From the NCBI GenBank assembly GCA_029070945.1, contig JAIEBK010000051.1:88530-122574 (forward strand): a stretch of 34,045 nt of DNA, in the 5' to 3' direction. A model generated the notes under the pieces. It was not told where the DNA came from and ran no database searches. It worked only from the letters and a program-made list of their open reading frames with translations. Below are positions 13,305 to 21,756 of the stretch, piece after piece; position 1 is the stretch's first letter, and every line of letters begins with the position of its first letter. The translations under genes were made by a program, and so were the position numbers. Origin of the DNA: Muribaculaceae bacterium (GTDB taxonomy: Bacteria; Bacteroidota; Bacteroidia; Bacteroidales; Muribaculaceae).

Positions 13305-14903
13305 ATGCCTGAAAAAATAAAACAGACCATTGAATCGGGAAAAGCCGTGCTCGGAATCGAGTTCGGCTCTACCCGAATCAAGGCCGTTCTCATCGACGAG
13401 AACAATAATCCGATAGCCCAGGGAAGCCACGAGTGGGAAAACCAGCTTGTCAACAGCCTCTGGACCTACAGCCAGGAGGCAATATGGTTCGGACTGCAGG
13501 ACTGCTACAGAGACCTTCGCGAAGACGTGAAGAATAAATACGGCGTTGAGATAAAGAAACTCGCCTCAATCGGCATCAGCGCCATGATGCACGGATACAT
13601 GCCTTTCGACAAAGCCGGCAATATGCTCGCCCCCTTCCGCACATGGAGAAATACCAATACAGGTGAGGCTGCCGCTATTCTCTCGAAAGAATTCGACTAT
13701 AATATTCCCCTCCGCTGGAGTATCTCCCACCTCTATCAGGCTATCCTGAACGGTGAGGAACACGTAAAAGACCTTGCTTTCCTCACCACACTCGCCGGAT
13801 ATATCCACTGGCAGCTTACAGGAGAGAAAGTAATCGGTATAGGCGACGGAAGCGGAATGCTGCCCGTAGATCCGGAGACAAAGAACTACAACGCCAGGAT
13901 GGTGAAGAAGTTTGACGAGATGATCGCCGACAGGAACTTCGACTGGAAACTTGAGGACGTGCTTCCTAAAATCCTTGTAGCCGGAGAGAACGCCGGCTAC
14001 CTCACGGAGGAAGGCGCGAAGCATCTCGACATCTCCGGAAATCTTGAGGCGGGAGCTCCGCTTTGTCCTCCCGAGGGTGACGCCGGAACCGGAATGGTGG
14101 CAACCAACGCCGTGAAGCAACGTACCGGCAATGTTTCGGCTGGCACATCTTCATTCTCCATGATTGTGCTTGAAAAAGACCTCAGCCGGCCATATGAGAT
14201 GATCGACATGGTCACGACACCCGACGGAAGCCTCGTTGCTATGGTGCATTGCAACAACTGTACTTCCGACCTTAACGCGTGGGTAGGACTCTTCCGTGAG
14301 TATACAGAGCTGATGGGTGTGCCCGTGGATATGAACGAGATATTCGGCAAGCTCTACAACAATGCCCTCAACGGCGATGCGGACTGCGGAGGCCTCGTAA
14401 GCTACAACTATTTCTCCGGGGAGCCTATCACCGGACTGAGCGAGGGTCGTCCCCTCTTCGTACGTAAGGTAGGCAACAAATTCAATCTCGCGAACTTCAT
14501 GCGGGCCAACCTGAACGCGGCTGTAGCTTGCCTCAAGATCGGTAATGACATCCTTTTCGATGAGGAGAAGATCAAGGTAGACCGTATCACGGGCCACGGC
14601 GGCCTCTTCAAGACTCCGGGCGTAGGACAGCGCATCCTCGCTGCAGCCCTCAACTCCCCTATCTCAGTCATGGAGACGGCTGGTGAAGGTGGCGCATGGG
14701 GCATGGCATTGCTCGCCGGATATCTCGTAAACAACGTAAACGACCGCAATCTGGCCGACTATCTGGAGATGGAAGTCTTTGATGGCAACACCGGCACGAG
14801 CATTGCTCCTACAGAGGAAGACGTGGAAGGCTTCAACCGCTACATAAAGAACTATCTTGAGGCTCTTCCGGTGGAGAAAGCCGCTGTTGAATATTTTAAG
14901 TGA
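13305..14903 (+). CDS. araK: FGGY-family carbohydrate kinase, probable L-ribulokinase of the Bacteroides AraK type
   Basis: This 532-aa FGGY kinase has the N-terminal phosphate-binding segment GIEFGSTRIKAVLID and, centrally, the CPPEGDAGTGMVATN segment with the likely catalytic Asp. The ATP-binding part near the C-terminus reads TAGEGGAWGMALLAGY. Homologues are often annotated as xylulokinase, but in Bacteroides arabinose loci this protein takes the place of AraB and phosphorylates L-ribulose. No other kinase is present in the operon, which supports ribulokinase activity here. It is the last gene before a strong terminator. The exact substrate is inferred from context. Confidence 0.88.
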   Translation: MPEKIKQTIESGKAVLGIEFGSTRIKAVLIDENNNPIAQGSHEWENQLVNSLWTYSQEAIWFGLQDCYRDLREDVKNKYGVEIKKLASIGISAMMHGYMPFDKAGNMLAPFRTWRNTNTGEAAAILSKEFDYNIPLRWSISHLYQAILNGEEHVKDLAFLTTLAGYIHWQLTGEKVIGIGDGSGMLPVDPETKNYNARMVKKFDEMIADRNFDWKLEDVLPKILVAGENAGYLTEEGAKHLDISGNLEAGAPLCPPEGDAGTGMVATNAVKQRTGNVSAGTSSFSMIVLEKDLSRPYEMIDMVTTPDGSLVAMVHCNNCTSDLNAWVGLFREYTELMGVPVDMNEIFGKLYNNALNGDADCGGLVSYNYFSGEPITGLSEGRPLFVRKVGNKFNLANFMRANLNAAVACLKIGNDILFDEEKIKVDRITGHGGLFKTPGVGQRILAAALNSPISVMETAGEGGAWGMALLAGYLVNNVNDRNLADYLEMEVFDGNTGTSIAPTEEDVEGFNRYIKNYLEALPVEKAAVEYFK

Positions 14904-14947
14904 TCACATCACACGCTAAATATCGGCAACTAACCGGTGAATAACGA

Positions 14948-14987
14948 AACAGGTCCATTCCTATAACGGGGATGGATCTGTTTTTTC
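14948..14987 (+). terminator. Terminator of the arabinose operon
   Basis: A 14-bp stem (14948-14961 with 14969-14982, two G-U pairs) has a 7-nt loop and runs into a TTTTTT tract. It lies 45 bp after the kinase stop codon. Confidence 0.85.
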
Positions 14988-15032
14988 TTAAGAAGTTCTG
15001 CCGCCTGTTATGGATGGTGAGAAAGAATACAT

Positions 15033-15240
15033 AAAAACGCTGTGGCCGGGATTTTCGCAAACTCCGGCCACAGTGTGATTTTTTAGATATTGCATCCACT
15101 TTCACAAGCAAAAACAACACTTACTCAACCACTAACTTACAAATTATATCACTATTACTTAAAAAGCTTTAGACTTGCTTGTCAAGAGAAATAAAAATGC
15201 TATGCCAATTATTTCAAACCAAACTCTTTCCTCTCTTGAC
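15033..15240 (-). ncRNA. Candidate minus-strand non-coding RNA
   Basis: A minus-strand promoter is visible: CAAAATTA at 15245-15252 reads TAATTTTG on the minus strand (TAnnTTTG). An ATTG (plus-strand CAAT, 15273-15276) lies 20 nt upstream as a near -33 element. The predicted start near 15240 coincides with the first base of an 11-bp stem (15232-15242 with 15179-15189). The transcript would run about 205 nt to a strong 14-bp hairpin (15037-15084) followed on this strand by TTTTT at 15037-15033. A second 8-bp helix (15104-15111 with 15175-15182) shares bases with the first, so alternative folds are possible. No convincing protein is encoded. I do not recognise a known RNA family; a 6S-like RNA is one possibility to test. 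Confidence 0.5.
15037..15084. terminator. Strong bidirectional terminator hairpin
   Basis: A GC-rich stem around CTGTGGCCGG/CCGGCCACAG, extended to 14 bp (15037-15050 with 15063-15076), has a T-tract on both strands (15079-15084 plus; 15033-15037 minus). On the plus strand it would only back up the terminator at 14948, so the minus-strand candidate RNA is its more likely client. Confidence 0.75.
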
Positions 15241-15252
15241 AATGCAAAATTA

Positions 15253-15444
15253 ATACTTTTATTTCGATTGTGCAATAGTTGGAACTATAAATTTACCCCC
15301 CCCGGTCATTTTAACCAATTTTGCGACAAATTGACCATTTTATAAAATATCTCAGGCTTTTGTCCCGAGTCTTCGAAGTAAGGACTGACAGACCATAAGA
15401 AAATAAAAACTCATTTAGATGAGACAGAATACGGATTTTTTCAT
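15253..15444. other. Non-coding stretch upstream of aminopeptidase P
   Basis: There is no gene here. It contains the near -33 element of the minus-strand promoter (15273-15276), an uninterrupted run of eight C at 15296-15303, and a small AT-rich inverted repeat (CAATTT/AAATTG) around 15315-15332. Such a C-run is unusual in AT-rich intergenic DNA and may be length-variable; I cannot assign it a role. Confidence 0.4.
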
Positions 15445-15471: not shown

Positions 15472-17262
15472 ATGGAAAAGATCGAAAAGAAAAGGCTCGA
15501 TGCGCTGCGTAGGGTGATGGCTCAACAGGGAATCGACTGCTGCATCATCAACAGCACAGACCCTCACCAAAGCGAGATCCCGGCTGCGCATTGGCGTGGA
15601 AGGGAATGGATGACCGGATTCAAATCTGAAAACGGCACCAACGGCATAGCCGTAGTGACTAAAGATCGCGCATATGTATGGACAGACAACCGTTTCTTCA
15701 TTCAGGCTCGTCAGCAGCTCGAGGGAACAGGTTTTGAGATGATGCCGCTCGATGGTCCTGAAGGCGTGGATCTTGTGGAATATATTGCGGACATGATGCC
15801 TGAAGATTCAGTGGTGGCGATCGATGGAATGACCTTCAGCAGTACTGACGCTGAAAAGATGCGGGAAGCTTTCGAGGAGGCCGGTCTGCACTTCGCCACC
15901 GACTTCCCGATGTTTGACTATATCTGGCCCGATCGGCCGGAACAACCGCTCAACCGGCTCTTCATACACGACGAGGATATCGTAGGGGAAACCGTAGAAT
16001 CAAAAATATCAAGAATCCTTACGGAAGTGGATAAGGAGGGAGCCGACGCCATCCTCATATCCGCATTGGATGACATAGCATGGGCCACCAACCTCAGAGC
16101 CGCCGGCGACGTGGTATTCAGTCCGATGTTTCTTGCCTATCTGTACCTTGACAAGGAAGGCAGCCGGATCCTATTCATCAACGAAAAGAAACTGACTGAA
16201 GAAGTAAGGGAGTTCCTGAAGAAATACGATATTGAGATACGCGGATATGATGAAGTCACAAGGTTTGCAGAGACCCTTTCGCCCTCATCCTGTGTTCTGA
16301 TCGATCCCTCGCTTACTTCAATCACCATAGCCGAGGCAATTCCCACAGCCATTGAGGGAGGCAAAGGAGTAGCGAAATTAAAGAGCGTAAAAAACGAGAC
16401 CATGCTCGCCCACTGGCGTACTGCCATGGAAAAGGACGGAGTAGCTCTCGTGAAGCTATTCAAATGGATAGACGAGGAATTTCCTGCCGGAAAGCTTACA
16501 GAGATGTCTATAGCAAGAAAGCTCAGGGAATGCCGTCTTGCCGATCCTGACTGCGTAGATGAAAGTTTCGCTGCCATTGTCGGCTGGAACAGTCACGGAG
16601 CCATCGTCCACTACGAACCGAGCGACGAAACAGACGTGCCGGTCACAGGACAAGGCCTGCTTCTGATCGACAGCGGAGGACAGTACACACATGGCACCAC
16701 CGACATCACGCGCACAGTCGCGCTTGGAGGAGAGCCGACAGCAGAACAGAAACATGACTTCACGCTCGTACTGAAGGGAATGATAGCACTTGCAACAGCT
16801 ACATTTCCTAAAGGGACCCGCGGAGCACAGCTCGATATCCTCGCACGCAGGTATCTCTGGAACGAAGGGAAAGCCTATTACCACGGCACAGGACATGGAG
16901 TGGGTTTCTTCATCAACTGCCATGAGGGCCCCGCTCAGATACGAATGAACGATATACCTGTTCCTCTCGAGCCGGGAATGGTGATGAGCGACGAACCGGG
17001 ACTCTATATAGAAGGCAAATACGGCATCAGATGTGAGAACATGCTGGCCGTTGAGCATTGGAAGAACAACGAGTTCGGTGAATTCTACCGATTCCGGAAC
17101 CTTACGCTCTTTCCATTTGACAGAAATCTTATCGAATGGGAGATAATCACACCGGAAGAAAAACGATGGCTGGAAAGCTACAATAAGGAGATCATCGAAC
17201 GCCTCTCCCCTCTTCTGGACGCGGATGAAAAAAAATGGCTTGAATCAAAGATCAATGGTTAA
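15472..17262 (+). CDS. pepP: Xaa-Pro aminopeptidase (aminopeptidase P, M24B, long form)
   Basis: This 596-aa metallopeptidase removes N-terminal residues that precede proline. It has the three-domain long architecture: two creatinase-like N-terminal domains (about 1-320) and the C-terminal pita-bread domain. All five dinuclear-metal ligands are visible: Asp400 (LLIDSGG), Asp411 (TTDITRT), His475 (GTGHGVG), Glu508 (SDEPGLY) and Glu522 (IRCENM). No signal peptide is present, so it is cytoplasmic. It is followed after 100 bp by the gamma-carbonic-anhydrase gene, possibly in the same transcript. Confidence 0.95.
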   Translation: MEKIEKKRLDALRRVMAQQGIDCCIINSTDPHQSEIPAAHWRGREWMTGFKSENGTNGIAVVTKDRAYVWTDNRFFIQARQQLEGTGFEMMPLDGPEGVDLVEYIADMMPEDSVVAIDGMTFSSTDAEKMREAFEEAGLHFATDFPMFDYIWPDRPEQPLNRLFIHDEDIVGETVESKISRILTEVDKEGADAILISALDDIAWATNLRAAGDVVFSPMFLAYLYLDKEGSRILFINEKKLTEEVREFLKKYDIEIRGYDEVTRFAETLSPSSCVLIDPSLTSITIAEAIPTAIEGGKGVAKLKSVKNETMLAHWRTAMEKDGVALVKLFKWIDEEFPAGKLTEMSIARKLRECRLADPDCVDESFAAIVGWNSHGAIVHYEPSDETDVPVTGQGLLLIDSGGQYTHGTTDITRTVALGGEPTAEQKHDFTLVLKGMIALATATFPKGTRGAQLDILARRYLWNEGKAYYHGTGHGVGFFINCHEGPAQIRMNDIPVPLEPGMVMSDEPGLYIEGKYGIRCENMLAVEHWKNNEFGEFYRFRNLTLFPFDRNLIEWEIITPEEKRWLESYNKEIIERLSPLLDADEKKWLESKING

Positions 17263-21603: not shown

Positions 21604-21644
21604 AACCGGGATCGCATTAAACCTTTTGCGATCCCGGTTGTCTT
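21604..21644 (+). terminator. Terminator of the SusE/F-like gene
   Basis: A perfect 13-bp GC-rich stem (21604-21616 with 21627-21639) and 10-nt loop are followed by a short T-rich stretch (TTGTCTT). Confidence 0.75.
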
Positions 21645-21756
21645 ATAGATATAAGTAAGAAATTAGTTTCATGATGTTAGGTTAGTAAAATGTATTATGG
21701 AAAACACTAAGCGGCAGCTGTCTGTGAAGATGACTGCCGTTTTCATGTATACTCCA

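Follow-up and report, generated by a model that had tools for sequence, protein, structure and literature searches.

Results

Position and signals of the RNA gene

The spacer between a sugar kinase gene and a peptidase gene on a contig of a Muribaculaceae bacterium raised the question of whether it holds a gene of its own and, if so, what that gene would do. We analyzed the spacer within a stretch of 34,045 nucleotides, which is referred to here as the window. An RNA gene of approximately 210 bases is located in this spacer, on the minus strand at 15030-15244 (Table 1). The signals proposed in a first-pass annotation, made from the sequence alone, were all found: the minus-strand box TAATTTTG and the ATTG element upstream of it are present, the 11-bp stem at the predicted 5' end pairs perfectly, and the 14-bp terminator is accompanied by a T5 tract. 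The plus-strand kinase gene, to which a terminator of its own had also been assigned, indeed carries a hairpin and T-run at approximately 14941-14984.

Judged from its motifs, the promoter of the RNA is of the Bacteroidales vegetative type. As a sequence motif only, a TAnnTTTG-type box occurred within the upstream 160 bases in 51 of 55 aligned loci, compared with 10.2% in shuffles, and the four misses include one locus (L054) whose upstream sequence comprises 2 bases only. By eye, a TTG-type -33 element stands at a similar spacing upstream of the RNA in many relatives. A run of eight C is located at 15296-15303, between the promoter of the RNA and the M24 gene, and near relatives also have at least eight C.

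Table 1. Features of the RNA gene and of the adjacent genes (positions in the window).
Feature	Position	Strand	Description
-33 element ATTG	15273..15276	-	3/4 match to TTTG; 20 nt from -7 box
-7 promoter box TAATTTTG (TAnnTTTG)	15245..15252	-	read from sequence; box recurs in relatives
5' hairpin	15179..15242	-	stem 15232-15242/15179-15189; 13 bp in predicted fold
Linear core	15133..15178	-	weak local pairing only in predicted fold; 15159-15133 highly conserved
Central domain	15075..15132	-	closing helix GUGGUU/AAUCAC, internal loop, hairpin with GUGA cap (15105-15102)
Intrinsic terminator stem-loop	15040..15073	-	stem of 10+4 bp; GCGA loop 15058-15055
T5 tract of terminator	15033..15037	-	predicted 3' end at about 15030-15033
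M24 aminopeptidase gene	15472..17262	+	divergent; usual neighbour of the RNA
FGGY sugar kinase gene	13305..14903	+	convergent with the RNA in this clade

Predicted fold

The minimum-energy fold of 15030-15244 has an energy of -65.6 kcal/mol, compared with -43.6 +/- 3.9 kcal/mol for 200 dinucleotide shuffles, none of which was as good (z -5.6). Three features had been absent from the earlier annotation, namely the central hairpin with its GUGA loop, the GCGA loop of the terminator and a highly conserved stretch at 15159-15122. This conserved block of approximately 35 nt takes in one side of the closing helix, and nine 10-mers of the core are each common to 46 of the 55 aligned rows. We consider the linear core a candidate seed or protein site. 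The loop UUUGGUUUGAA..AAUUGGCAUAGCAUUUU of the 5' hairpin (15189-15232, minus strand) is nearly identical in 10 of the 55 rows and free in other clades, and may be a clade-specific site.

Alternative folds had been suggested on the basis of an 8-bp helix (15104-15111/15175-15182) competing with the 5' stem. The helix is real in the sequence but absent from the minimum-energy fold. Judged by eye, its sequence is almost invariant among near relatives and cannot be recognised in the divergent loci L153-L155 and L163, so covariation gives a switch no support and we rejected it.

Conservation of the structure in relatives

A covariance model (R1) was built from 16 loci including that of the window. 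On 55 aligned loci the model gave 44.6-159.5 bits, with 151.9 bits for the window, itself a member of the training set. These 55 rows represent 55 chosen sources; the contig-end fragments L041, L062, L064 and L084, the short forms L150, L159 and L167, and L166 were left out. In the alignment of relatives, which had been proposed as a check on the first annotation, the promoter, the 5' stem, the central hairpin and the terminator are all conserved, and covariation is seen in the central hairpin and most of all in the terminator.

RNAalifold, applied to a 35-row MAFFT alignment that was thinned by hand from the 55 and not fitted to the model, recovered the closing helix, a small inner helix, the central hairpin and the terminator. 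Compensated double changes were found in 19 of 27 pairs, with 14 in the terminator, 2 in the central hairpin (where a U-A pair is changed to C-G in 6 rows) and 3 in the small inner helix, which is often broken. The closing helix had no compensated double change in these 35 rows and showed changes on a single side only; in 4 rows, for example, G-U is replaced by A-U. Among the 16 rows, 13 pairs showed compensated double changes (12 in the terminator) compared with 8.2 in shuffles, and 94.4% of cells were paired compared with 36.8-49.3% in slid controls, the structure being derived from the same alignment.

GNRA apices were found on the central hairpin in 55 of 55 rows and on the terminator in 52 of 55, in a search that accepted only GNRA loops closed by 3 bp or more. 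When the stems were anchored on their loops instead of on a fitted alignment, 0 to 4 of 1000 partner swaps reached the observed pairing at positions 2-6 from the loop of the central hairpin, and 0 of 1000 did so at all 12 positions of the terminator; the values at positions adjoining the loop are biased by the way the search was defined. The 5' hairpins differ in sequence between clades, and among the 16 first loci z was below -2 in 13, with -0.37 as the weakest value. For the larger set of 51, z fell below -2 in 23 and below -1 in 41; the start of the model truncated some of these segments, and in 7 of the 51 the segment began at a box at least 130 nt away.

A shortened form occurs at the same locus in L150 (9961-10052), L159 (10014-10106) and L167 (9957-10048). 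The core is kept in these three, and the central GNRA hairpin is lengthened and followed by Ts, as if turned into a terminator.

Distribution among genomes

A DNA search of 61 genomes gave some match in 36, many of them to the promoter stretch only; counted from the table, the stretch of the RNA itself was matched in 18, own genome included, all of the same genus. A 20-letter core pattern was found in 47 stretches of the named collection, of which 45 come from metagenome-assembled genomes and two from isolates (Isolate-036 and Isolate-037), in records titled Muribaculaceae, Porphyromonadaceae, Bacteroidales, Bacteroides or Muribaculum. A single pattern match lies on a viral contig (L087). R1 found nothing there at E 1 or better and the neighbourhood appears unrelated; the match was put down to chance, and a phage origin was rejected.

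With Infernal's stricter filters, which lose weak matches, R1 matched 36 of 101 relatives, all within the same genus. When 397 genomes of the family were searched in this way, 57 had a match at E 0.01 or better. Fifty-four of the 57 belong to the genus, and at least one of these (G366) holds only a match to a second RNA family, described below as family 2. The matches in other genera (g47, g65 and g58; L156-L158; 29.2, 36.4 and 43.7 bits) resemble, by eye, the ends of coding genes and were discarded. Under the same filters a broader model, R2, matched 4 of 295 genomes of the order including our own; the other three lie near the threshold and are unconvincing, and by eye they resemble a gene end (L210), the GUUAG-type RNA (L211) and a bare terminator (L212). 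From these searches across the family and the order, the RNA is, as far as seen, restricted to one genus of Muribaculaceae. It has one strong R1 copy per genome; G009, G337 and G431 contain additional weak matches, which are members of another family.

In the searches of relatives and family, R1 had no match in nine genomes of the genus that are 92-100% complete, a point that we counted against the preferred reading given in the Discussion. These nine are among ten genomes of that completeness that all carry the M24 gene, and R2 gave two matches on the ten M24 loci. One of them (G030, 32.9 bits) belongs by eye to family 2. The other is a weak, diverged match (20.9 bits, E 0.021) in the M24/nucleotidyltransferase spacer of G007 (L213:3635-3741), where by eye a promoter, a hairpin and a GNRA-loop terminator flank a strongly changed core.

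Gene order

Gene order was compared in 34 of 40 fetched loci, with L152, L156, L157, L158, L170 and L171 excluded as family 2 or gene-end matches only. The M24 gene is present in 25 of the 34, always on the strand opposite to that of the RNA and directed away from it, with an extra reading frame in between in at least L144 and L164. Seven loci are without it, and L133 and L134 stop at the contig end. On the other flank, a sugar nucleotidyltransferase gene (an assignment checked with PF13562 for three members) is found in 13 loci, on the same strand as the RNA in 11 and on the opposite strand in 2. In the clade of the window, an arabinose operon occupies the flank away from the M24 gene. Another pair of genes flanks the RNA in L153, L154, L155 and L163. 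In L153 this pair encodes a DUF4296 protein and an outer-membrane barrel, with lspA and a class I tRNA synthetase gene next to it, and by BLAST the genes of L154, L155 and L163 match those of L153.

These arrangements bear on whether the RNA may act in cis, as a leader or attenuator, on the gene that follows it. The same-strand nucleotidyltransferase gene in 11 of 13 loci and the same-strand next gene in L153-L155 and L163 would suit such a role, but the RNA and the downstream gene lie on opposite strands in the window, in the arabinose-operon loci (L132, L133, L148 and L149) and in 2 of the 13 nucleotidyltransferase loci, and further loci have different neighbours. Because of this gene order, a cis leader is largely refuted, and we regard it as highly improbable. 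The neighbours change from M24/nucleotidyltransferase to M24/arabinose operon to DUF4296/barrel while the RNA stays, which indicates an independent gene. Comparison at the sequence level establishes the boundaries of this gene, its structure, its conservation and its independence from its neighbours.

Terminators and AT-rich promoter-like boxes are common, and a promoter and a terminator might thus face a spacer by chance, without a functional RNA. However, sequence and structure are conserved across 55 loci with different neighbours, and this comparison effectively refutes the chance reading, to which we give hardly any credence.

Comparison with known RNA families

No Rfam family was found in the window at gathering thresholds. 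The first-pass annotation had inferred a stand-alone structured RNA, possibly 6S-like or undescribed. Bacteroidales-1 (RF01693), which we take to be the 6S RNA of this order, has a model length of 179, similar to that of the RNA, and no match in the window; its separate match lies elsewhere in the same genome (C17; 94.7 bits, cut-off 60). The fold of the RNA also consists of three hairpins around a mostly linear stretch and not of one long rod, and the 6S-like part of the proposal was accordingly abandoned. The stand-alone, undescribed part is strongly supported by the promoter, 5' stem, central hairpin and terminator conserved in relatives. Among the best matches of a literature search, none dealt with regulatory RNAs of Muribaculaceae themselves, and none was found for a Muribaculum intestinale sRNA.

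At permissive thresholds, the GibS model (RF04182) aligned to the window end to end with 19.6 bits (E 3.2) and to two relatives with 16.1 and 23.8 bits, all far below the gathering score of 115. BTnc231 (RF04180) aligned to two relatives with 14.9 and 21.6 bits, below its gathering score of 80.4, and was not listed for the window. The two models align to the RNA in different registers. A GibS search of 37 genomes gave better matches elsewhere (up to 44.7 bits), and one listed match at E 1 or better, with 21.3 bits in G002, falls on this RNA. Among 149 genomes of the order, 48 had a BTnc231 match at E 0.1 or better, none over the cut-off. Since no family reaches its cut-off, the RNA is none of Bacteroidales-1, GibS and BTnc231 by the curators' rules, and we rejected membership in the latter two. 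That it is nevertheless 6S RNA, a member of another known family or a homologue of GibS or FopS is very unlikely: the weak end-to-end matches and the similar layout count in favour of it, but the low scores, the shifted registers, the better GibS matches elsewhere and the separate Bacteroidales-1 locus argue against it.

In the published description of GibS (PMC7366714), this Bacteroides RNA is intergenic, approximately 145 nt long and mainly single-stranded at positions 1-38, with promoter motif 2. On the one hand, GibS resembles our RNA in its intergenic position, linear AU-rich region, central hairpins and intrinsic terminator, together with the weak full-length match. On the other hand, GibS is described without the 5' stem-loop and has promoter motif 2 in place of the TAnnTTTG box. 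BTnc231 and the FopS family (PMC11697453), to which BTnc231 may belong, are similar in having a linear region followed by a terminator. FopS has 14 paralogues in B. thetaiotaomicron, with a single-stranded 5' stretch and a terminator (PMC11697453); compared by description, it is multicopy, whereas our RNA is present as a single strong copy in each genome and has two hairpins more. BatR is described as conserved in Bacteroides species beside other genes (PMC10861873), and that description sets it apart from our RNA.

Coding capacity, targets and partners

No reading frame is kept across the 55 rows. The sequence ATGGCAAGTC occurs in 27 of them, giving 10 different peptides of 7-15 residues, and 28 rows are without it, including that of the window, which lacks the ATG.

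The core was compared with the translation starts of 192 crudely called genes in 291 kb, approximately 11% of the genome, and no excess complementarity was found (mean -7.05 compared with -7.40 +/- 0.28 for shuffled cores; top five -12.6 compared with -13.5). Pairing with the M24 starts of 16 loci (mean z -0.67) or the nucleotidyltransferase starts of 8 loci (mean z 0.18) was not consistent, and these two candidates were rejected; the ends of BLAST matches or ORFs served as starts, and in several loci they miss the true start. The two M24 cases with strong pairing, L143 and L148, seem to fall within promoter DNA.

The main rival to a core that pairs with mRNAs is a protein-binding RNA, whose core and GNRA domain would bind, titrate or scaffold a protein without mRNA pairing. 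This role is in line with the strong conservation of approximately 35 nt, to which one strand of the closing helix belongs, and with the lack of a complementarity signal at the 192 gene starts; we counted that lack, and the length of the conserved block, which exceeds a usual seed, against pairing in trans. However, a conserved region of this kind can equally serve several mRNA targets. A search for RRM_1 proteins, which detected one in the control Bacteroides ihuae, gave none in the genome (82.8% complete), and an RbpB-type partner was therefore not seen. We consider protein binding a possible but unlikely explanation.

A second RNA family and other small RNAs

Another RNA-like repeat family (family 2) is present in the window at 21624-21750 on the plus strand, with GUUUCAUGAUGUUAGGUUAG...UAUUAUGGAAA followed by a terminator with a GUGA loop. 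The genome contains four copies at E 6.6e-9 or better, including that of the window, and several relatives also have copies. Family 2 contains GUUUCAU, the complement of AUGAAAC; its core outscores shuffled cores at gene starts but does equally well inside genes. By eye, our RNA, family 2 and further weak matches have in common an (A/G)GUUAGU stretch ahead of a GNRA-loop terminator. It is a doubtful, though conceivable, idea that RNAs with this stretch are clients of one non-RRM RNA-binding protein, an RNA chaperone of Muribaculaceae. GibS-model matches of 21-45 bits elsewhere in this and related genomes and a GUUAG-containing RNA-like element in G018 (L238) were also observed, which at the level of sequence suggests several more unnamed small RNAs in these genomes.

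Discussion

We consider it fairly probable that this locus is a stand-alone small RNA gene of a new Muribaculaceae family apparently confined to one genus, with its own promoter and terminator and a core acting in trans. Because its own start signal, stems and stop signal are kept in dozens of related gut bacteria, the gene very likely makes a regulatory RNA, and this RNA is probably a trans-acting regulator. The layout of 5' stem, conserved linear core, hairpin domain and terminator resembles that of GibS and BatR as described (PMC7366714, PMC10861873), and the best reading is a new family of a known kind, the trans-encoded small RNAs.

We infer that transcription would start at the RNA's own vegetative-type promoter and end at its own intrinsic terminator. 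The 5' stem-loop, whose structure is kept while its sequence drifts, would most likely cap and stabilise the RNA, and the linear core would be held between this stem and the hairpin domain with its GNRA cap. As with GibS and BatR in Bacteroides, the core would then most likely act in trans by pairing with a single mRNA or a small number of them.

Muribaculaceae are major bacteria of the mouse gut. A sharply bounded and strongly conserved RNA that is also present in two isolate records provides a direct entry to the small RNAs of this family, and it offers a test of whether small-RNA regulation outside Bacteroides obeys the same rules.
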